Source of the DNA: Rhodospirillaceae bacterium
GTDB lineage: Bacteria > Pseudomonadota > Alphaproteobacteria > GCA-2731375
Assembly: GCA_018667855.1 (NCBI GenBank)
Contig: JABIRL010000229.1
Span: 1-35,884 of the forward strand
Direction of reading: 5' to 3'
DNA length: 35,884 nucleotides
Below the pieces are notes generated by a model. The model was not told where the DNA came from. It saw only the letters and a program-made list of their open reading frames with translations, and made no database searches. The position numbers were made by a program, and so were the translations under genes. Shown here in pieces: positions 5,540 to 18,341 of the stretch (positions are counted from its first letter, which is position 1; every line of letters begins with the position of its first letter).

Positions 5540-6487
5540 TTATATCCGGTCCGCGCCGTAATACAGCATCACCTTGTGCTGGGCTTCGGCGAAAAACAGC
5601 CAGCGTTCAATGACCACGCCGAAGCTGATGGCGATCGCCGCCAGGGCGGCGGCGGCCAGGCTGGCCGGGCCGGATGTGGCGGTCTGGATAATGATCAGGA
5701 CCAGGGGTGCGAGAAAGGCCAGCAGATGGGTCAGGCGTCTTAGTTTGGCGCTGTGTTTGCGGGCTACCACATAGCCCATTTCCTTCAGCAGATAATTGTC
5801 CTGCACGTGGGGTGGGTCCAGGGGACGTACCTGGCCAAAGCCCGTCAAGCCGGTCGCCGAGGCGGAGCTGCTGTCTCCTACTGCCGAGTCAATGGCCCGC
5901 CAGTAGGCGATCTTTACCAGCCAGGCGGCGGCCAGGGCGGCGAAACAGACGGCTTGAAGAACTTCGTTGCCGGGCGCGAAGGGCATCAGCATCGCGTTCA
6001 ACCAGACCGCACCGGTGGCCAGGGCCATGAGTAGGTAAACGGGGGCCACCAAGGGGTGATGCCAGCGGGGAATGGCCGCCAGGGAACGATAGATCATGGA
6101 CGTGCTGTAGACGGTGGCGACGGAGAAGCCGGCTGCGGCCCATCCCGCCAGGGGCCACAGGCCATCATTTCGCTGCAGGATAAGCCAGCTCAACGCGAAC
6201 AGCAGGGCGGGACCATATGTCACGACGGCCAGGACGCCTTCCCGGGACAGCCACGATGAACGCCATTGAGAGAAGGCCCGCCAGCTTCGCTCCGGCCGGC
6301 CCAGATGGGCTGTCGAAACCAACAGCCCGGCGGTGATCAGCGCCAATGCCAGACCCAGAACAATCACGCCAAACGTGCGGTCGTGGGGCAGATGGTCAAT
6401 GGCGCGCAAGACACCCAATAAAGCCAGCAGGCCGTAGCCGGCGCCGGTGGCGGTGGTCAGAAAGATGACGGAATAAGCTGGATGCAT
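5540..6487 (-). CDS. soeC: DmsC/NrfD-like membrane anchor subunit, probably SoeC of sulfite dehydrogenase
   Basis: A 315-residue integral membrane protein with about eight hydrophobic helices, starting MHPAYSVIFLTTATGAGYG, a typical opening of DmsC-type anchors (HPAxSVIxFT). Further family-like stretches are RPERSWRAFSQWRSSWLSRE and YLLKEMGYVVARKHSAKLRR. Such subunits anchor the cytoplasmic molybdenum and iron-sulfur subunits and pass electrons to the quinone pool. The longer frame to 6580 starts with low-complexity basic sequence. ATG 6487 has an AGGAGG-type site upstream and a 16-bp gap after soeB, so I chose it. It is the last gene of the soeABC run. The Soe rather than Dms assignment comes from the relatedness of the A subunit to sulfite dehydrogenases. 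Confidence 0.8.
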   Translation of the reverse strand: MHPAYSVIFLTTATGAGYGLLALLGVLRAIDHLPHDRTFGVIVLGLALALITAGLLVSTAHLGRPERSWRAFSQWRSSWLSREGVLAVVTYGPALLFALSWLILQRNDGLWPLAGWAAAGFSVATVYSTSMIYRSLAAIPRWHHPLVAPVYLLMALATGAVWLNAMLMPFAPGNEVLQAVCFAALAAAWLVKIAYWRAIDSAVGDSSSASATGLTGFGQVRPLDPPHVQDNYLLKEMGYVVARKHSAKLRRLTHLLAFLAPLVLIIIQTATSGPASLAAAALAAIAISFGVVIERWLFFAEAQHKVMLYYGADRI

Positions 6488-6503
6488 CTTGGAAACCCGC
6501 CTC

Positions 6504-7259
6504 CTAGCGGGACAGGGTCCGGTCGATCCAGCCCAGAAAACCGCCGCCCGTCGTCGGGGCGTCGTCCAGGCTGGCGCCATCGGCCATGGCGCCCACCGTG
6601 GCGGCGGGCCGTGGCGGCAGGTAGCGGTTGGTGGGTTTCAGGCCAAGTTCCGGCATCAGTTCCACGCCGCCGCGCGCCGCGGTCAGTTTCGCGACCGCAG
6701 AGTTCGGATCGTTAAAATCGCCAAAATGCCGGGCCCGGGCCGGGCAGGCATTGACGCAGGCCGGCTGACGCTCGTCCGCATCCAGGTTTTCGTTGTAGAT
6801 ACGATCGATGCACAAGGTGCATTTTTTCATCACGCCGCCATCGCTGTCGAATTCCCGGGCGCCGTAGGGGCAGGCCCAGGAACACAGCTTGCAGCCAATG
6901 CATTTGTCCTCTTCCACCAGCACAATGCCGTCTTCGGTGCGTTTATAGGATGCGCCGGTGGGGCAGACGGTGACACAGGGCGCATCCTCGCAATGCAGAC
7001 ATGAGCGCGGAAAATAGACGGTGCGCCCGTCCTTGTTGTTACCGCCCGTATCGCCAGTGGTTTCGAAACCATGTACCCGGTTCAGCCAGACGCCATCCAC
7101 GTCCTTGCCGTAAGGGTCCGTGTCGGGCAGGGGCGCGTGATAGCCGGCGGTGTTCCATTCCTTGCAATTCACGGCGCAGGCATGGCAGCCGACGCAGGTG
7201 TCCAGGTCGATGACCAGGCCCAGGCGTTTGGGCGACGGCGACTTCGGCAGCGAGGTCAT
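6504..7259 (-). CDS. soeB: Four-cluster [4Fe-4S] electron-transfer subunit, probably SoeB
   Basis: A 251-residue DmsB/PsrB-type ferredoxin. Sixteen cysteines fall in four groups: CVGCHACAVNC, CLHCEDAPCVTVC, CIGCKLCSWAC and CTLC paired with the later CVNAC, enough for four [4Fe-4S] clusters. It wires the molybdenum subunit to the membrane anchor. There is no signal peptide or twin-arginine motif, so the complex faces the cytoplasm, as reported for SoeABC. The C-terminal tail after NRYLPPRP is a variable extension. Its start codon overlaps the soeA stop region at 7259 (ATGA-type junction), indicating translational coupling. Confidence 0.88.
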   Translation of the reverse strand: MTSLPKSPSPKRLGLVIDLDTCVGCHACAVNCKEWNTAGYHAPLPDTDPYGKDVDGVWLNRVHGFETTGDTGGNNKDGRTVYFPRSCLHCEDAPCVTVCPTGASYKRTEDGIVLVEEDKCIGCKLCSWACPYGAREFDSDGGVMKKCTLCIDRIYNENLDADERQPACVNACPARARHFGDFNDPNSAVAKLTAARGGVELMPELGLKPTNRYLPPRPAATVGAMADGASLDDAPTTGGGFLGWIDRTLSR

Positions 7260-10162
7260 CAGCGATCCTCCCCGAACCGGGCGCCATAGCGCAGAATTGT
7301 GGGTCGCGGCCGCACGCCGGGCGGCAGGGGCAGAGTTTTGAACTCAGGCTCGGTTATAGCGGCATCAGCTGGCGCCTTGGAAATCCGCACCCGCAGGTCG
7401 AACCAGGCGGCCTGCCCGGTGATGGGGTCGGCATTGGCCAGCCGGCCGCCGCCGTTCTGACTGTCGGGGGGCAACAGATCCTCGATCAGATGGTTCAGCA
7501 GAAAGCCCTTTTGCGCCTCCGGTGCATCCGCCGCCAAATTCCAGGCACCGGACCGTTTGCCGATGGCATTCCAGGTCCAGACCGTATGGTCGTTGACGCC
7601 GGCCATGATGCGCACCTGGGCCTTGATGCGGCCATGGCGGCTTTCCAGATAGGCCCAGCCGTCGTCCTCGATGCCCTGTTCCTTGGCCACGGCCTCGGAA
7701 ATATACAGGCGGTTGGCGGTATGGATCTGCCGCAGCCAGGCGTTTTGCGAGCCCCAGGAATGATACATCGCCGCCGGCCGCTGGCTGATGGCATGCAGGG
7801 GATAGTCCTCCGCCGCGGTACCGTCGACGGCGCTGGGCGGGTACCAGATCGGCAGGGGATCGAAAAACCGTTCGATCCGCTTGCGATGTTTATCGGGCGG
7901 TTGCAGCTCGCCCACACCGCGGGCGGCCAGGCGAAAGCGCTGCAGCGCCTCGGTATAAAGCTGCAGTACGATGGGGTCGCCATGGCCGATGAAACCCATT
8001 TTAACGGCGTAATCCAGATAGGCCCGGTTGCCGTGTTTGAAATAGCGCGCCTCGGGCGCCAGTTCGTCATACCAGAAGCATTCGTTTTCGATATAGCGGT
8101 CCAGCTGGTTCGGGTTCGGCGCGCCCGTGCCGTGGTCCTCGCCGTCCGCGCCGCGCCAGCCGGCCAGGGAGCCGACACCGGGTGCGCGTTCGTGATTGGC
8201 CAGATAATCGGGATAGCCGCCCGGATAACGCGCCGCGCCCGTATCGTCGACCAGTCCCGGCAGACCCAGGCGGACGCCCAGATCCAGCAGCACATCCTGG
8301 AACGGGCGCACATCGCGCAGGGTTTCCAGCACCGGCTGGCGGATCGCGTCCGCCGGCCCATCGGCGTTGGAGATCGGGCGGTCCAGCATGGAGACGCAGT
8401 CCCAGCGTTCCAGATAGGTGGTATCGGGAAAGATCAAGTCGGCATAGGCCACGGTCTCGGAATAGAAGGCATCCGCATAGATGATATGGGGGATTTTGTA
8501 TTCACCGCTGTCGGGATCCTTGTCCGTCAGCATGGCCATGGTTTCCGTCGTGTTCATGGACGAATTCCAGGCCATGTTGGCCATGTACATGAACAGGGTA
8601 TCGACCGGATAGGGATCGCCCCGGTGCGCATTGGCAATCACCGTGTGCATCATGCCGTGGGCCGACATGGGCGCTTCCCAGCTAAACGCATGGTCGATGC
8701 GGCAGGGGCCGCCATCCGCCTCCACCAACAAATCTTCCGGCCCTTGGGGAAAACCAAGCGGCGGGCCGCCCAGGGGCGTGCCGGGCACAACGTCGCCCGG
8801 CTTGCCGGCGGGTTTCAGGCCGGGCGGCGCTGGTTTCGGAAACGGCGGCTTGTAGCGGAAGCCGCCCGGTACATCGATGCTGCCCAGCAGCATTTGCAGC
8901 AAATGCAGACTGCGGCAGGTCTGAAAGCCGTTGGCATGGGCCGAGATGCCGCGCATGGCGTGAATGGCCACGGGCCGGCCGATCATTTGTTCCTGGCGCC
9001 GCCCGGCCCAATCGGTCCAGGGTATGTCCAGCACAACCTCTTCCTCAAAGGCGGCATGGGCCAGTTCGGCCGCGATGGTGCGAATGGTCTCCGCCGACAG
9101 GCCGGTCTGGTCGGCGACGGCGTCGGGGCCGTACTGACCATCCAGATAACGCTCCGCCAACAGATGGAACACGGGTACGCCGGCGCGGCCGTCGGGCAGG
9201 GTGACGCGGTCCTTCAGGCTGGGCGCGATGTCGGCTTCCAGTGCGTTGACCGCCGCGTTCCGGGTCGAATCCCAGCACAGGGGATTGCCGTCCCCATCGC
9301 GGGCGAACAGGCCGTCATCATCGGCGCCGGGATCCTCGATCACCAGCCAGGGTGCGTTGGTGTAACGGGCCAGATAATCCAGATCGACCTTGCCGGCGCG
9401 CAGCAATTCGTGCACCAGGGCCAGCACCAGCAAACCGTCGCTGCCCGGCGTTACGGCCAACCATTGATCGGCGATGGCGGCATAGCCCGTGCGTACCGGA
9501 TTGACCGCGACATATTTGGCGCCGTTTTCTTTCAGCTTGGCCAGGCCGGTCTTTATGGGGTTCGAATCATGATCCTCCGCCACCCCGAACATCATGAAAT
9601 AACGGCAATGCTCCCAATCAGGTTCGCCGAATTCCCAGAACGAGCCGCCGATGGAATATAACCCCGCCGCCGCCATGTTGACGGAACAGAAACCGCCGTG
9701 GGCCGCATGATTGGGCGTGCCGAACTGGCTGGCCCACCATCCCGTCAGCGCCTGACTTTGATCCCGGCCAGTGAAAAACGCCAACTTGCGTGGATCTTCG
9801 GCCCTGATTGGCGCCAGCCAGGATATGGCCAGCTCCAGCGCCTCCTCCCACTCAATGGCCTTGAACTCACCGCTGCCTCGCTCGCCCACGCGCAACAGGG
9901 GCTGTGACAATCGCGCGGGCGAATGATGCTGCATGATGCCGGCCGAACCTTTGGCACACAGCACGCCGCGATTGACGGGGTGGTTCTTGTTGCCCTCGAT
10001 ATAGCGCAACTCGCCATCGCGCAAATGCACCTTGATGCCGCAACGGCAGGCGCACATGTAGCAAGTGGTGTATTTAATTTCGTCCGAGACTTCCGGCGAC
10101 AAATCTACCCGCTCGGCATCCTTGGCCGCATCCGCTCCCGCGGCATCTTCCGCAATCGTCAT
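7259..10162 (-). CDS. soeA: Molybdopterin oxidoreductase catalytic subunit, probably sulfite dehydrogenase SoeA
   Basis: A 967-residue complex iron-sulfur molybdoenzyme subunit. The N-terminal [4Fe-4S] site is C34-x2-C37-x3-C41 ... C69 in TTCYMCACRCGIKVHLRDG and NRGVLCAKGSAG. The block TGRDQSQALTGWWASQFGTP followed by HGGFCSVNM puts Cys159 at the expected molybdenum-ligand position. Bis-MGD-binding blocks include FGVAEDHDSNPIKTGLAKL, IHAMRGISAHANGFQTCR and the C-terminal molydop-binding barrel. There is no Tat signal, so the protein is cytoplasmic. The overall pattern matches the alphaproteobacterial SoeA group, which oxidises sulfite from organosulfonate or thiosulfate metabolism. A DMSO, polysulfide or thiosulfate reductase relative remains possible. 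GGGAG lies nine bases upstream of the ATG. First gene of soeABC. Confidence 0.88.
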   Translation of the reverse strand: MTIAEDAAGADAAKDAERVDLSPEVSDEIKYTTCYMCACRCGIKVHLRDGELRYIEGNKNHPVNRGVLCAKGSAGIMQHHSPARLSQPLLRVGERGSGEFKAIEWEEALELAISWLAPIRAEDPRKLAFFTGRDQSQALTGWWASQFGTPNHAAHGGFCSVNMAAAGLYSIGGSFWEFGEPDWEHCRYFMMFGVAEDHDSNPIKTGLAKLKENGAKYVAVNPVRTGYAAIADQWLAVTPGSDGLLVLALVHELLRAGKVDLDYLARYTNAPWLVIEDPGADDDGLFARDGDGNPLCWDSTRNAAVNALEADIAPSLKDRVTLPDGRAGVPVFHLLAERYLDGQYGPDAVADQTGLSAETIRTIAAELAHAAFEEEVVLDIPWTDWAGRRQEQMIGRPVAIHAMRGISAHANGFQTCRSLHLLQMLLGSIDVPGGFRYKPPFPKPAPPGLKPAGKPGDVVPGTPLGGPPLGFPQGPEDLLVEADGGPCRIDHAFSWEAPMSAHGMMHTVIANAHRGDPYPVDTLFMYMANMAWNSSMNTTETMAMLTDKDPDSGEYKIPHIIYADAFYSETVAYADLIFPDTTYLERWDCVSMLDRPISNADGPADAIRQPVLETLRDVRPFQDVLLDLGVRLGLPGLVDDTGAARYPGGYPDYLANHERAPGVGSLAGWRGADGEDHGTGAPNPNQLDRYIENECFWYDELAPEARYFKHGNRAYLDYAVKMGFIGHGDPIVLQLYTEALQRFRLAARGVGELQPPDKHRKRIERFFDPLPIWYPPSAVDGTAAEDYPLHAISQRPAAMYHSWGSQNAWLRQIHTANRLYISEAVAKEQGIEDDGWAYLESRHGRIKAQVRIMAGVNDHTVWTWNAIGKRSGAWNLAADAPEAQKGFLLNHLIEDLLPPDSQNGGGRLANADPITGQAAWFDLRVRISKAPADAAITEPEFKTLPLPPGVRPRPTILRYGARFGEDR

Positions 10163-13331: not shown

Positions 13332-14588
13332 TCAGAAAGTAGATTTGCGCCTTCGAAAATGCGGCCAGACCAAAGCGGCGACAGCCAGGGCGGCCAGGCC
13401 TTCGACGGCGATGATGCCGACGGCCATGGCGCCGCCGAACCAATCCGCCAGTAGGCCCACCTGCAGAATTCCCGATGGGCTGACGCCGATACAGACCGCA
13501 AGAACTCCCATCAGGCGGCCGCGCATTTCAGGTGGGGCGGCGGTGAAAATGATGGTGCTTTGCATGGCGGCAAACCCGGCCACGCCCAGGCCTGCCAGGA
13601 ACAGCAGACCCAGGGACAAGGCGTAGTCCCGGGAGAAAGAAAAGGCGACAAGGGCGCCGAGAAAAAAGATCGAGCCATAAAAATAGATGCTTGAATAATG
13701 CCTTGGCCGGGCCAAATTCGCTATGAAAAGAGCGCCGAGCAGTCCGCCCGCCGCATCCGCCGACAATAACAATCCCGTGGCCACCGCGCCCTGGCCCAGC
13801 ACCTGGCCGCCGATCACCGGCACCATGGCGCCATAGGGAAAACCGCAGATGTTCATCACCATCGTCACGTACAGCGTACCCATGAGCACCGGATTGGTGC
13901 GGATATAGCTTAACCCCTCGATGATCTGGCCCAGGATGCGCGGCGCGCCCGTGCCGTGATGGGGGGCATGATATTCCGCTGTCCAGACTAGAATGAAGCC
14001 GAGGCCAAACAGCACCACGCCCAGCACATAAACCCCGGGCAGGCCGAACTGGGTCAGCACCAGGCCGCCCAGGGCCGGGCCGATCAGGCGCATGCAATGG
14101 TTGGTGGCGCTGTCCAGGGTCAGGGCCACGCCGGCCCCGGCAGTGCCGGCTTCCGTCGAGGCGATAATACCCAGCATGGCCCGGCGCACGGGAAATTCCA
14201 GGGTGCCGTACAGGCCGGAAATGAACATGCCCAGGGCCACATGCCACAGTTCGATTTGATCCGTGATGGCCAGAACGGCAAGGACGGCGGAGGTCAACGC
14301 CAGGGTCGCCATGCCCACCAGCAGCATCACCCGGCGGTCGAAGCCATCGGCGATGGCGCCCGTGAAGGCGCCCAGCAACAGCATGGGCACGGTCCGCGCC
14401 ATGGTGATCAGCGCCACCATGAGGGCCGATTGCGTCACTTCGAAGGTGAACACCCCGATGGCCAGCATTTCCAGCCAGCGCATCATCCAGCCCAGGGCGC
14501 CGGCAATCCAGATGCGGCGGAAGTTACCGTCCCGGATCAACGTCAGCGGCGTGACGGTAACTTCCGCTCTGGTCCCGGTGTCTGACAA
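13332..14588 (-). CDS. Major facilitator superfamily transporter (MFS_3/EntS-like exporter)
   Basis: A 418-residue protein with about 12 hydrophobic helices in two halves. The opening DGNFRRIWIAGALGWMMRWLEMLAIGVF and the loop AFTGAIADGFDRRVMLLVGM (the MFS motif-A position) are typical of the EntS-like MFS_3 group, which contains siderophore and drug exporters. A second-half counterpart reads GALFIANLARPRHYSSIYFYG, and AAPPEMRGRLMGVLAVCIGVSP is the usual MFS_3 signature near TM11. The substrate cannot be told. It starts 10 bp after the selenoprotein gene ends and closes the five-gene minus-strand run. It converges with the chemoreceptor gene, with the terminator between them. Confidence 0.88.
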   Translation of the reverse strand: MSDTGTRAEVTVTPLTLIRDGNFRRIWIAGALGWMMRWLEMLAIGVFTFEVTQSALMVALITMARTVPMLLLGAFTGAIADGFDRRVMLLVGMATLALTSAVLAVLAITDQIELWHVALGMFISGLYGTLEFPVRRAMLGIIASTEAGTAGAGVALTLDSATNHCMRLIGPALGGLVLTQFGLPGVYVLGVVLFGLGFILVWTAEYHAPHHGTGAPRILGQIIEGLSYIRTNPVLMGTLYVTMVMNICGFPYGAMVPVIGGQVLGQGAVATGLLLSADAAGGLLGALFIANLARPRHYSSIYFYGSIFFLGALVAFSFSRDYALSLGLLFLAGLGVAGFAAMQSTIIFTAAPPEMRGRLMGVLAVCIGVSPSGILQVGLLADWFGGAMAVGIIAVEGLAALAVAALVWPHFRRRKSTF

Positions 14589-14598
14589 AACTCCTGTC

Positions 14599-15483
14599 TT
14601 AGTCGCCCGCCGCCGCCATCGCCGCCTCGGCCAGCTGCCGGTCCGCCTCTAGCTGATAGCGCGGGGTCAAATCACGTGGCTGGCGCGCATCGTCGGCGCC
14701 GTCATCCGATGCCGCGTCTTTCCAGCCTTCGCCCCCGGGCCATTTCTGATCCAGATGGATAAGTCCGCCCGGCTCTTGGATGCGGTCGAAAGCGGTGAAG
14801 GCTTCCCGCGCGATGGCAAGCTGGCTGGCTGGGTCAAACGCCGGGCCGCCGCCATGGCCCAGGGGAACGTCCATGAACACGGCGCGGGGCGGCCAGCCGT
14901 ATTTGACGATATCCAGGGCCGTGCCCATCACCAGGGTGGGGATGCCGCGTTCTTCCAGGTAACGTGCGATCAGACACACGGTCTGATGACACACCGGTCA
15001 CAACGGTACCAGATAGGCGACCTCGACGCCCTCCCGGGCGAAGGCCTCGTACATGGCCGGGGCCAGTTCCTCGTCCACCCGGCGTTTGGAATAGACCGCG
15101 CCCATGCAGGAAAACACATTGTCCGCCACGCTGCCGATCACGCCTTCATCGGCCAGCGTGCGCAGGGGCTCCAGGGGGAAGGCGCAATTGGGGTCGCGCC
15201 GGGCGTCGGGCAGATAATTTTCCGTCAGATGGGAAAACCGCAGACCCTCCATCGGCGTCGCCGACGGGATGATCCGGTGGGAGGTATCATCCTTGTAAAA
15301 ATAAGCTTCCTGCCCCGCCACATAAGTTCCGGCGGTGGACATCATGCCGATTTTGCAATCCGACAGCGGTTTCGCCAATGGCGTCCAGGGCGGTGAATCC
15401 TCCGCCTTGTGCCAGCCGTAGGGGTCATAGCCAAGCTTGCTATACTTCTCCCGAATTGTCTTCATATATTCAACTGTGCTCAC
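14599..15483 (-). CDS. GrdB-family (glycine/betaine/sarcosine/proline reductase type) selenoprotein with in-frame UGA read as selenocysteine
   Basis: Two adjacent open frames, 14998-15483 and 14599-14997, are in the same phase and are separated only by TGA at 14998-15000. Read through, they give one 294-residue protein. The N-terminal half (DCKIGMMSTAGTYV, DDTSHRIIPSATP, DPNCAFPLEPLRTLADEGVIG) and C-terminal half (VCHQTVCLIARYLEERGIPT, GWPPRAVFMDVPLGHGGGPA) are both recognisable GrdB-family (Pfam GRDB) segments. The junction reads YLVPL-U-PVCHQT, placing Sec162 in a U-x-x-C redox motif where relatives carry Sec or Cys. A SECIS-like hairpin follows the UGA, and no other stop interrupts the frame. 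The reaction is unknown; the classic GrdB partners are absent. It lies between an acyl-CoA dehydrogenase and an MFS gene. A nonsense mutation is the alternative. Confidence 0.85.
14963..14993 (-). promoter_or_regulatory. Putative bacterial SECIS element just downstream of the UGA codon
   Basis: Counting the U of UGA as mRNA base 1, bases 14-20 (AUCAGAC) pair perfectly with bases 26-32 (GUCUGAU), leaving the five-base loop CGUGU at 21-25, with G at 22 and U at 23. After one C-C mismatch the stem extends outward through GC, AU and wobble pairs to bases 8 and 38. A small apical loop with an early G about 18 bases after the UGA fits the known bacterial SECIS pattern. It lies within the coding sequence, as bacterial SECIS elements do. 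Confidence 0.75.
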
Positions 15484-15516
15484 GTCGATACTCCCGTTGC
15501 CGCTTTGCCTGTCAGT

Positions 15517-16644
15517 CTACGCCAGGGACCGCGAGATGACAATTTTCTGGATATCATTGGTGCCTTCATAGATGCGGTAAACGCGCACGTCGCGCAGGAT
15601 CTTGGCGACCGGGAAGTCTTCCAGATAACCGTAGCCGCCGAAGGTTTGCAGGGCATCGGAGGCCACTTTTTCGGCCATGTCGGAAGCAAACAGTTTGGCC
15701 ATGGAAGCTTCCTTCAGGCTGGGCGCGCCGCTGTCGTGGATCTGGGCGGCATGCAGATACAGCCGCCGCCCGGCCTCGATCTGGGTTGCCATATCGGCCA
15801 GGCGAAAGGCCACGGCCTGGTGTTCGAAGATCGGCTTGCCAAAGGCTTCCCGTTCCTGGGCGTAAGCGAGAGCGGCCTCGAAGGCGGCCCGGGCTCCGCC
15901 CACGGCCTGGGCCGCGACGCCGATGCGGCCGGCGGAAAGGTTGGCCAGGGCGATGCCCAGGCCCCGGCCTTCCGCGCCCAACAGATCGCTGGCCGGCACC
16001 ACCATATCCTCGAAGGCCAGGGCGCAGGTGTCGTTGGTGCGGTGGCCCAGCTTGGCTTCCTCGGCCAACACCTGGTAGCCGGGATTGTCGGTGGGCGTCA
16101 GAAAGGTCGAGATGCCCCTTTTGCCGGCTTCGGGATCGGTGACCGCGACGATCATGACAACCCCGGCGCGGCGCCCGGCGGTGATGAACTGTTTGCGGCC
16201 GTTCAGGACGAAATGATCGCCCCGCCGCTCCGCCCGGGTGGTGATGGCGGCGGCATCCGAGCCCGTATGCGGTTCCGTCAAGGCGATGCAGCCGATCATC
16301 TCGCCGCTGGTCAGGCCGGGGAAGAAGCGTTCCTTCTGGCCCTGGCTGCCATGGTCGTGCAGGGCCGCCAGGACCGGAGAATTATTCGCCGCCATCAGAT
16401 TGGCAATGCCCCCGTCGGCGGCGGAAATCTCCTCCATGGCCAGCACGTAGGAGACAAAATCGGCCCCCGCCCCGCCCCATTCGGGATCGATGCAGATACC
16501 CATCAGGCCGGCCTGGCCCATCTTGGCCAGCAATTCCGCCGGCGCGCCGGTTTCCTCGTATTGTTTCAGATTGGGCAGAATTTCCCTTTGCGCGAAACGG
16601 CGCGCCGTGTCCTGGATCATTTGCTGTTGTTCGTTGAGGATCAT
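15517..16644 (-). CDS. Acyl-CoA dehydrogenase family protein
   Basis: A 375-residue FAD-dependent acyl-CoA dehydrogenase that introduces an alpha-beta double bond and passes electrons to ETF. Standard blocks are present: MGICIDPEWGGAGADFVSYVLAMEEIS, ALTEPHTGSDAAAITTRAER (flavin site), KQFITAGRRAGVVMIVAVTD, REAFGKPIFEHQAVAFRLADMA, and the C-terminal LQTFGGYGYLEDFPVAKILRDVRVYRIYEGTNDIQ. The glutamate of YEGTNDIQ is at the catalytic-base position of short- and medium-chain enzymes. Length and motif order are normal. The substrate is not evident. It is the third gene of the minus-strand run, with five bp to the upstream EamA gene and 33 bp to the selenoprotein gene. Confidence 0.94.
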   Translation of the reverse strand: MILNEQQQMIQDTARRFAQREILPNLKQYEETGAPAELLAKMGQAGLMGICIDPEWGGAGADFVSYVLAMEEISAADGGIANLMAANNSPVLAALHDHGSQGQKERFFPGLTSGEMIGCIALTEPHTGSDAAAITTRAERRGDHFVLNGRKQFITAGRRAGVVMIVAVTDPEAGKRGISTFLTPTDNPGYQVLAEEAKLGHRTNDTCALAFEDMVVPASDLLGAEGRGLGIALANLSAGRIGVAAQAVGGARAAFEAALAYAQEREAFGKPIFEHQAVAFRLADMATQIEAGRRLYLHAAQIHDSGAPSLKEASMAKLFASDMAEKVASDALQTFGGYGYLEDFPVAKILRDVRVYRIYEGTNDIQKIVISRSLA

Positions 16645-16649
16645 TCAAA

Positions 16650-17522
16650 CTACCTGCCTACCGCGATCAAGATCACACCCGCCACCACCATGACCACCAT
16701 GGTGACCTGCCGCCAGGTGATGGCCTCCTTGTGGAACAATACCAGGCCCAGCAGCAAGGTGAACAGGGGCGTGGTGGACACCAGGGGCACGACGATGCTA
16801 ACCGGCGTCGTGGCCAGGGCCGCATTCATCACCCAAACCGCCAGGCCGTGCACGATACCGGCGGCGACGAACCACAACAGGCCCGGATTGGCCCAGTTGA
16901 CCCGCCGCAGCTCGCCCCGCCAGCCCTGCACCGCCAAGGCCATCAGGCAGGAAACGCTATAGGCCACTAGGCCGGCGAACAAGGGTTCCGGCGCAAAGGC
17001 CAAGCCCATGCGGATCAGGACATGGGCGATAGAGCGCAGGCCGGCCGCGCCAAGGGGAAATACCAGGGCCCAGATCGGCCAGGGTCGTGCCGCCTTGCCC
17101 CCCGCCGTCGGCAGGGCCGTGCCCAAGACCACGGCGACGGTGCCCAGTACGATGGCCATGGTGACACTCTCGCCCAGCAACAATATGCCAAAGACCGCCG
17201 CGAATAACGGTGTGGTGGACGTCAGGGTAGAGGTCAGCGTGGGACCCAACCGCCGCACCGCCTCCAACGCCAGGTTGGCGGATATCACAGGCCGGAACAG
17301 GCCCACGGCGACAAAAATCAGGAACCCGGCGGAGGTGAAATACTCGGTTTTCAGAAACAGCGGCGACAACAGCCAATAAAAGGCCGCGGTGGTGGCGATA
17401 TCGATCAGGGTGCCGGTGCGGGCATCCCCATGGCGCAGACCGAGGCTAAGAAACTGGATACCCAGGGCGAAGAACAACGACGCGCCCAGGGATTGGGCCA
17501 CGGCCAGCCATGCAACATCCAC
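16650..17522 (-). CDS. EamA/DMT-superfamily transporter
   Basis: A 290-residue protein with ten predicted helices in two EamA repeats (about residues 5-140 and 150-290). Each ends in a typical pattern: SLGLRHGDARTGTLIDIATTAAFYW and STTPLFAAVFGILLLGESVTMAIVLGT in the first, STTPLFTLLLGLVLFHKEAITWRQVTMVVMVVAGVILI in the second. Members export amino acids, nucleosides or other small metabolites. The substrate is unknown. It lies five bp upstream of the acyl-CoA dehydrogenase and 18 bp downstream of the DUF427 gene, so it is probably part of the same transcript. Confidence 0.88.
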   Translation of the reverse strand: MDVAWLAVAQSLGASLFFALGIQFLSLGLRHGDARTGTLIDIATTAAFYWLLSPLFLKTEYFTSAGFLIFVAVGLFRPVISANLALEAVRRLGPTLTSTLTSTTPLFAAVFGILLLGESVTMAIVLGTVAVVLGTALPTAGGKAARPWPIWALVFPLGAAGLRSIAHVLIRMGLAFAPEPLFAGLVAYSVSCLMALAVQGWRGELRRVNWANPGLLWFVAAGIVHGLAVWVMNAALATTPVSIVVPLVSTTPLFTLLLGLVLFHKEAITWRQVTMVVMVVAGVILIAVGR

Positions 17523-17540: not shown

Positions 17541-18341
17541 TTACTTCGGGGACCATTTGGTGACGGGACGTTCGGTTTCTTCACCATCCACATGGATCGC
17601 CTCGACCCGTTCGTTGAAGAAACACAGATAGTCCTTGATGCGGGCTGCCTCGGCCACCGGGTCTGGATAACTCCAGACCAGATCCTCGAAACATTCATCG
17701 CCCAGGTTCAGATGCCAATAGTCCGCCGTGCCCTTGTAGGGGCAATCGCTGTGCCGATCCGAGGGTTGCAGCAGATCGCTACGCACATCCTCTTTCGGCA
17801 GGTAATAGCGCGTGGGCAAACCGGTTTCGAACAACATGCGCGCCCGGATGCTTTCCCCGACCATCTGGCCCGCGACGGTGATGCGCACGGGGCGCGAGCT
17901 ATCCAGGATATCCAGGCGCACCTTCGGGTCCCTGGGGTGGACGAAAACTTCCTCGTCCTCTTCGAACCAATGGTCCATGCGGTCCCAATAGAAGGCGACA
18001 TAGTTCTTCATCTCGGCCGTCTCGTCGTATGGCGTGGGGTAGTGCCAGACGGCGTTTTCCGCCTCCCGGTCACCCACCTTGACCGTCCAATAGGCGGCAT
18101 CTCCTTTAAAGGGGCAATGGGTGGAATGATCCGTCGCCACCAGGAATTCCCGGGCCACATCCGCCAGGGGAAAATAGAAAACCGGCAGGTGGTTGCTCTC
18201 CCGCAGATATTGCGCACGGGCGGTATCGGCGATGGTCTCGCCATTGAACATCACCCGCAGTCGTTTCGGGCAGGCCTCGAAATGTACATCGTAGCCGGGA
18301 TGCTTGTCATACAGAGATGGGCGTTGGCTGGTTTCGGTCAT
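17541..18341 (-). CDS. Two-domain DUF427 protein
   Basis: A 266-residue cytoplasmic protein with two tandem DUF427 domains. The first covers about residues 25-125 (RLRVMFNGETIADTARAQYLRESNHLPVFYFPLADV, THCPFKGDAAYWTV, NAVWHYPTPYDE) and the second about 145-245 (PVRITVAGQMVGESIRARMLFETGLPTRYYLPKEDV, SDCPYKGTADYWHL, DLVWSYPDPVAEA). The repeated CPxKG-x-A-x-YW and W-x-YP motifs define the family, whose function is unknown. It is the first gene of the five-gene minus-strand run and diverges from the amidohydrolase gene; the promoter should lie in 18342-18472. Confidence 0.93.
   Translation of the reverse strand: MTETSQRPSLYDKHPGYDVHFEACPKRLRVMFNGETIADTARAQYLRESNHLPVFYFPLADVAREFLVATDHSTHCPFKGDAAYWTVKVGDREAENAVWHYPTPYDETAEMKNYVAFYWDRMDHWFEEDEEVFVHPRDPKVRLDILDSSRPVRITVAGQMVGESIRARMLFETGLPTRYYLPKEDVRSDLLQPSDRHSDCPYKGTADYWHLNLGDECFEDLVWSYPDPVAEAARIKDYLCFFNERVEAIHVDGEETERPVTKWSPK

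Follow-up and report, generated by a model that had tools for sequence, protein, structure and literature searches.

The first question raised by this locus is whether a TGA that divides two collinear reading frames ends a gene or encodes selenocysteine within one; the second is what kind of enzyme the undivided frame would specify. The locus lies on the minus strand of a 35,884-nucleotide stretch of DNA from an alphaproteobacterium (the window).

The reading frame and its UGA

Read from the GTG at 15483 to the TAA at 14601-14599, the frame is free of frameshifts and contains one internal stop only, the TGA at 15000-14998, as a first-pass annotation of this DNA had claimed when it described two frames of the same phase split by a lone TGA. 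Translation as a single chain (Table 1) places U162 within VPL-U-PVCHQT, which bears out the U-P-V-C redox motif proposed at the same time. The GTG start is backed by an aligned ATG in the orthologue L025 (MSTVEYM), and the plus strand of 14599-15483 does not encode the PrdB-like protein. Since 13 of the 31 window genes that we picked terminate in TGA, this codon is an ordinary stop elsewhere. The standard-code list of open reading frames gives a second frame from the GTG at 14994; standard annotation thus splits the gene, as had been anticipated.

Table 1. Features of the locus and its flanking genes
Feature	Position	Strand	Basis and remarks
Predicted PrdB-like selenoprotein gene	14599..15483	-	294 residues, GTG start, TAA stop; NCBIfam TIGR04483, E 1.8e-37; orthologues
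In-frame UGA, codon 162, predicted selenocysteine of U-P-V-C motif	14998..15000	-	Orthologues; aligned with Sec of PrdB
Candidate SECIS core hairpin	14969..14987	-	7 bp, loop CGUGU 14976-14980, G 14979, U 14978; folding, comparison
Core plus lower stem (positions 8-12 with 34-38)	14963..14993	-	Lower stem poorly kept in relatives
GGGAG, possible ribosome-binding site	15491..15495	-	7 nt before GTG; proposed from sequence
MFS transporter, next downstream in putative operon	13332..14588	-	Pfam; 8 of 11 genus or family loci
Acyl-CoA dehydrogenase, next upstream in putative operon	15517..16644	-	Pfam
EamA-type transporter	16650..17522	-	Pfam; 4 of 11 genus or family loci
DUF427 (NTP_transf_9), two matched stretches	17541..18341	-	Pfam; 8 of 11 genus or family loci, two partial

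We searched 96 genomes (the window's own, 10 of the same genus, four of the same family and 81 of the same class) and found homologues in 21. The window protein has one orthologue in each of the 10 genus relatives, at 76-86% identity, and all 11 genus orthologues, the window's included, contain exactly one internal TGA. Three further orthologues from outside the genus also carry the UGA. The aligned codon in a table of 110 loci was TGA in 39, TGC in 60, TGT in 11 and anything else in none. With 10 second copies bearing TGA set aside, the 100 distinct loci comprised 29 TGA, 60 TGC and 11 TGT, proportions that do not represent frequencies, as one of the six search patterns held Cys at this codon. 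The first-pass annotation had proposed such an alignment and had named close relatives with an ordinary non-Cys codon and other disabling mutations as a sign of a pseudogene; no codon other than TGA, TGC or TGT occurred among the 100 distinct loci. Position 162 never holds anything but Sec or Cys in 49 aligned proteins.

Purifying selection acts on both halves of the gene. Mean pN/pS was 0.22 before the UGA and 0.29 after it (55 pairs among 11 orthologues). When the window gene is compared with the orthologue L020, differences fall mostly in third codon positions on both sides (14, 12 and 50 at first, second and third positions before the UGA; 11, 5 and 45 after it).

In a fragmented MAG that yielded no selA, one might suspect a true stop in a decaying gene, or a sequencing or assembly error, but we regard this explanation as refuted and exceedingly improbable: the same UGA recurs in further families and in 10 other genomes of the genus, purifying selection acts on both halves, and there is no second stop or frameshift. 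No more credible are two separate polypeptides, the second begun at the GTG that lies 3 nt past a terminating UGA and from which the second frame is listed: the start codon is not conserved, since 12 of 14 orthologues have GTT, GTC or GTA there; homologues with Cys run as a single chain through the UGA site; and the UPVC motif straddles the break.

The downstream hairpin and the decoding genes

The mRNA can form a hairpin after the UGA in which positions 14-20 pair with 26-32 (counting the U of UGA as 1) and CGUGU occupies the loop at 21-25. Folding confirmed the five-base loop, with G and U at 22 and 23, that had been described in the first-pass annotation. The window hairpin has an energy of -17.5 kcal/mol (z = -2.14), and four of 200 shuffled sequences folded equally well or better. 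Fold energy by itself makes a weak case; comparison among relatives makes a strong one. A bacterial SECIS model described in PMC13188914 specifies a loop of 3-9 nt, a stem of 4-16 bp, a G among the first two loop bases, a distance of 16-37 nt from the UGA and an MFE of at most -7.5 kcal/mol. Checked by hand, the hairpin falls within all of the constraints given there, with a 5-nt loop, a 7-bp stem, G as the second loop base, a distance of 17 nt and -15.5 to -17.5 kcal/mol.

Among distinct sequences with HQT, all seven core pairs form in 31 of 37 that have Sec but in two of 65 that have Cys (Fisher p ~8e-18, relatedness ignored). Resampling of synonymous codons, with a null based on the codon usage of 14 window genes, yielded the full core in 5.5% of cases, and in 8% for the window sequence itself. 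Among sequences with Ser after the loop valine, its codon is AGT in 20 of 20 with Sec vs five of 58 with Cys; across 14 orthologues, 14 of the 216 Ser codons are AGT, the hairpin codon counted. A covariation table of 40 rows (37 distinct) revealed compensatory change at pair 15/31, which is C-G in 16 sequences, U-A in 16, U-G in four and unpaired in one, and at pair 18/28, which is A-U once. Six of the 37 distinct Sec sequences miss one or two of the seven core pairs, pair 14/32 being broken in six of the 37, and minimum-energy folding of the orthologues L025, L026 and L028 favours another fold. An Rfam search with 501 bases around the UGA returned no relevant match. Taken across relatives, the pairing indicates that the hairpin is kept by selection as RNA.

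The first-pass annotation had also proposed a search for the sel genes. Three of these, selB (361 bits), selC (tRNA-Sec, anticodon TCA, 68 bits) and selD (two matches above cut-off, L016 on G000:C289 and L017 on G000:C49), were found in the genome that the window comes from, a 94.2% complete MAG in 371 contigs; the fourth, selA, was not found in this assembly. Two further matches above the cut-off of the tRNA-Sec model are tRNA-Ser according to ARAGORN. We found selA in all 10 of the other genus genomes and in both same-family genomes included in the selA search, and at each of the 13 loci in relatives where selA is complete, selB directly adjoins it. In the window's genome, contig C34 ends within selB: the match extends up to its final base and is missing the first 27 model positions. 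Because selB is cut by the contig end and the relatives' selA lies beside selB, the window genome's selA was most likely lost at a contig edge. The same adjacency and truncated selB make a different Sec pathway lacking selA unlikely.

The decoding genes have some features of their own. The selD at L016 is itself a selenoprotein gene, with TGA in HGGGUGCK, and L017 sits in a 777-codon frame free of internal stops. The tRNA-Sec gene (L148:3011-3106) lies between other frames on a different contig from selB; in other Alphaproteobacteria, by contrast, a tRNA-Sec gene nested in selB has been described (PMC8124441).

Readthrough with an ordinary amino acid, through near-cognate suppression and independent of selenium, has nothing specific in its favour and is highly improbable: only Cys codons replace the UGA in the 100 distinct loci, most UGA sequences but few Cys sequences have the complete hairpin, and the Sec machinery (selB, selD, tRNA-Sec) is present. 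Given selection that maintains the UGA, conservation of the hairpin at the RNA level and the presence of decoding genes, the UGA is almost certainly a selenocysteine codon, as the first-pass annotation had inferred; the Cys homologues and the selA found beside selB in relatives also support this reading. The comparisons further indicate that one 294-residue selenoprotein is very probably translated from the gene.

Relation to PrdB, GrdB and paralogues

The gene had been assigned to the GrdB family. The best NCBIfam model is PrdB (TIGR04483) at 129 bits, which does not reach the equivalog cut-off of 300 bits; GrdB-type NCBIfam models score 22-31 bits, and Pfam GRDB (PF07355) scores 17.1 bits (E 0.0035), below its gathering score of 22. 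The Sec of Peptoclostridium PrdB aligns on the window UGA (UGTCH vs UPVCH). The window protein thus appears closest to PrdB and only weakly like GrdB: the earlier assignment is loose, PrdB being nearer and the Sec occupying the PrdB column. PDB searches gave chance matches only by sequence (E >= 0.16) and nothing at E <= 0.001 by fold.

Like the PrdB of Clostridia, to which it is ~30% identical, the window protein has Sec in the same column of U-x-x-C-H. It differs in a longer C-terminus, in other neighbours, in a score under the equivalog cut-off and in that no PrdA was found: a profile search detected PrdA in none of the 11 genus genomes, and the same model was positive on a Terrisporobacter plasmid control. 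Its likeness to protein B of glycine, betaine and sarcosine reductases (GrdB, GrdH, GrdF) is a weak match within residues 94-226. The window protein is shorter than these, GRDA had no match in nine genus genomes in a search run without a positive control, and the window motif is UxxC, whereas the published GrdB motif is UxxCxxC (PMC13188914). It is therefore very unlikely that the protein is a true D-proline reductase (PrdB of PrdAB) or a reductase of the glycine type, even though PrdB is the best family model and the Sec position agrees with it. The protein appears to be a PrdB relative that fails two defining features of D-proline reductase, and the known form of that enzyme is unlikely here because PrdA was not found in any of the 11 genus genomes.

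Homologues with Cys occur in Alphaproteobacteria; they are 32-41% identical and read CPVCHQT where the window protein has UPVCHQT. Two of them bear the RefSeq name 'glycine/sarcosine/betaine reductase selenoprotein B family protein'. These RefSeq proteins carry Cys in place of Sec, and no gene cluster in common with the window was seen. Selenoproteins labelled PrdB, with a UxxC motif, have been counted in marine data, 42 in the Sargasso Sea (PMC1088965) and 235 in GOS (PMC2398784). Going by the descriptions in those reports, they share with the window protein PrdB homology, Sec in UxxC, Cys homologues and a marine setting. Because such proteins have already been counted, the window gene belongs to a known marine PrdB-like selenoprotein family and adds to it, and the surprise implied by the first-pass annotation is smaller than it seemed, these selenoproteins having been in print since 2005 (PMC1088965, PMC2398784).

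The 11 genus genomes yielded 80 superfamily matches, 78 of them with an in-frame TGA (one also with TAG); the two without are fragments that stop short of the codon. Each genome has 6-10 UGA-bearing PrdB/GrdB-like matches, a count in which a gene split between contigs may figure twice. The 42 distinct Sec sequences comprise 29 with UPVCHQT, eight with UPLDHQT and five others such as UPNCTRA. We built a tree of 87 proteins, from which 32 mostly Bradyrhizobium Cys rows had been removed beforehand. The window protein falls in a clade of 14 rows, all Sec, with support 100/100. The tree requires four changes between Sec and Cys; several branches are long and the deep joins are unsure.

In the UPLDHQT paralogue clade (L033, L040-L047, L153:14846-14893, L165, L173 and L176), the UGA and hairpin are kept and the second Cys has become Asp. 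Its members would be Sec enzymes in which the usual resolving Cys is missing from that position, and the replacement of Cys165 by Asp in this clade weakens the case for an obligatory Sec/Cys pair in the wider family.

Relatives of the UPLCSRA or UPNCTRA type, from the same genomes or class, were seen at G000:C126, which reads UPLCSRA, and C94 (L163, L164), and at L171, L172, L038 and L039. Many lie in frames of 410-450 aa, nearer to GrdB in length. One tree member, L128, comes from a MAG record titled Bordetella parapertussis and pairs at 100/100 with a 'Betaproteobacteria bacterium' MAG; its species name looks doubtful.

Gene neighbourhood and possible chemistry

The selenoprotein gene lies in a one-strand series, DUF427, EamA, acyl-CoA dehydrogenase, selenoprotein and MFS, with gaps of 5-33 bases. 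We compared 11 genus or family loci (L065-L074, L147). The acyl-CoA dehydrogenase gene is at most 100 bases from the selenoprotein gene in six of them (L066, L069, L070, L072, L074 and L147). The distance grows to 0.8-0.9 kb in L065 and L068 and to 2.5 kb in L073, opposite-strand genes intervening in all three. The acyl-CoA dehydrogenase was not seen in L067 or L071, where the flanks extend only 0.8 and 1.4 kb, and the cluster is absent at two more distant loci, L145 and L146. The gene cluster with acyl-CoA dehydrogenase is real but variable. Clustering of the neighbourhoods of 83 loci, blurred by antisense frames in GC-rich DNA, gave no cluster common to Cys and Sec homologues but may have missed one. 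Paralogue neighbours (nine, picked by hand) included CoA-transferase III, acyl-CoA dehydrogenase, acyl-CoA synthetase, enoyl-CoA hydratase and amidohydrolase.

In the mechanism proposed for PrdB, proline is held on the PrdA pyruvoyl group and attacked at its alpha carbon by a selenolate, after which a Cys of PrdB resolves the intermediate (PMC3091704). In the window gene, SelB would deliver Sec-tRNA(UCA) to the UGA with the aid of the hairpin. By homology to PrdB, the product would be a reductase, and the selenolate of Sec162, located where a helix begins, would attack an electrophilic carbon or another electrophile. Cys165 would resolve the intermediate to a selenide-sulphide, which a thiol donor would recycle. 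The enzyme would act without the pyruvoyl subunit PrdA, its substrate being activated by other means, and would for that reason not be D-proline reductase as known. In a structure model (pLDDT 88.7), residue 162 lies immediately before helix 163-178, a placement that would favour the selenolate. We consider it likely that Sec162 is a redox-active nucleophile.

Two accounts of what this nucleophile does compete. It may belong to a Sec-based thiol or peroxide oxidoreductase, serving detoxification or redox repair, rather than to a reductase of carbon substrates. A UxxC motif is common to many redox selenoproteins (PMC2398784), and PMC3091704 cites a paper whose title concerns the peroxidase activity of GrdB. 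Against this account are the catabolic neighbours of the gene and of the picked paralogues (acyl-CoA dehydrogenase, CoA-transferase, acyl-CoA synthetase and amidohydrolase), for which there is no background rate, and the Asp that takes the place of the second Cys in one paralogue clade; we put its chances a little below even. Reductive cleavage of a C-X bond, as opposed to general thiol or peroxide chemistry, is likewise a tentative reading, which falls somewhat short of an even chance. The neighbouring acyl-CoA dehydrogenase and transporter genes hint that the substrate is a small organic acid or an acyl compound.

Analogy makes substrates other than amino acids plausible, because an operon of Cloacibacillus with GrdB-like proteins has been linked to the cleavage of fluoroacetate (PMC10838667). 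As reported there, that operon resembles the window in having a GrdB-type protein tied to a non-amino-acid substrate and a transporter in the operon; it differs in belonging to an anaerobic member of the Synergistota and in having two GrdB-related genes and a radical SAM partner.

As far as our searches go, the 6-10 UGA-bearing relatives per genome, the UxxD sub-clade and the gene cluster with acyl-CoA dehydrogenase are apparently new; in the open-licence literature we found no paper on this lineage, its many paralogues or the UxxD form. Selenoprotein-rich bacteria, with six or more such genes, are described as mostly Deltaproteobacteria, Clostridia and Synergistetes (PMC5029168). Here, all 11 genomes of one alphaproteobacterial genus hold 6-10 UGA-bearing members of a single superfamily, and the window's own genome additionally carries a Sec-type SelD. 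One speculative picture, which we regard as possible but on the whole unlikely in its entirety, is that a marine alphaproteobacterial lineage became rich in selenoproteins through multiplication of the PrdB/GrdB-like superfamily (6-10 genes, some UxxD), whose members, free of a pyruvoyl subunit and placed beside genes of acyl-CoA catabolism, would carry out substrate-specific C-X cleavage by selenolate, perhaps in low-oxygen water. The acyl-CoA dehydrogenase gene cluster offers a starting point toward the substrate. Since standard-code gene callers split the gene in two, such enzymes may be missed in marine genomes.

Other genes near these loci merit mention. The minus strand of the window at 5540-10162 encodes a respiratory molybdoenzyme trio, consisting of a PhsA/DmsA-like catalytic subunit, an Fe-S subunit and a DmsC-like anchor, and a gene for the molybdoenzyme catalytic subunit directly follows the selenoprotein cluster in L066, L067, L068 and L073. 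Pairs of small opposite-strand frames lie between the acyl-CoA dehydrogenase and selenoprotein genes in L065 (5184-5809) and L068 (5114-6000), and another such pair precedes the selenoprotein gene in L067 (59-648), also on the opposite strand; judged by eye, these look like toxin-antitoxin pairs.
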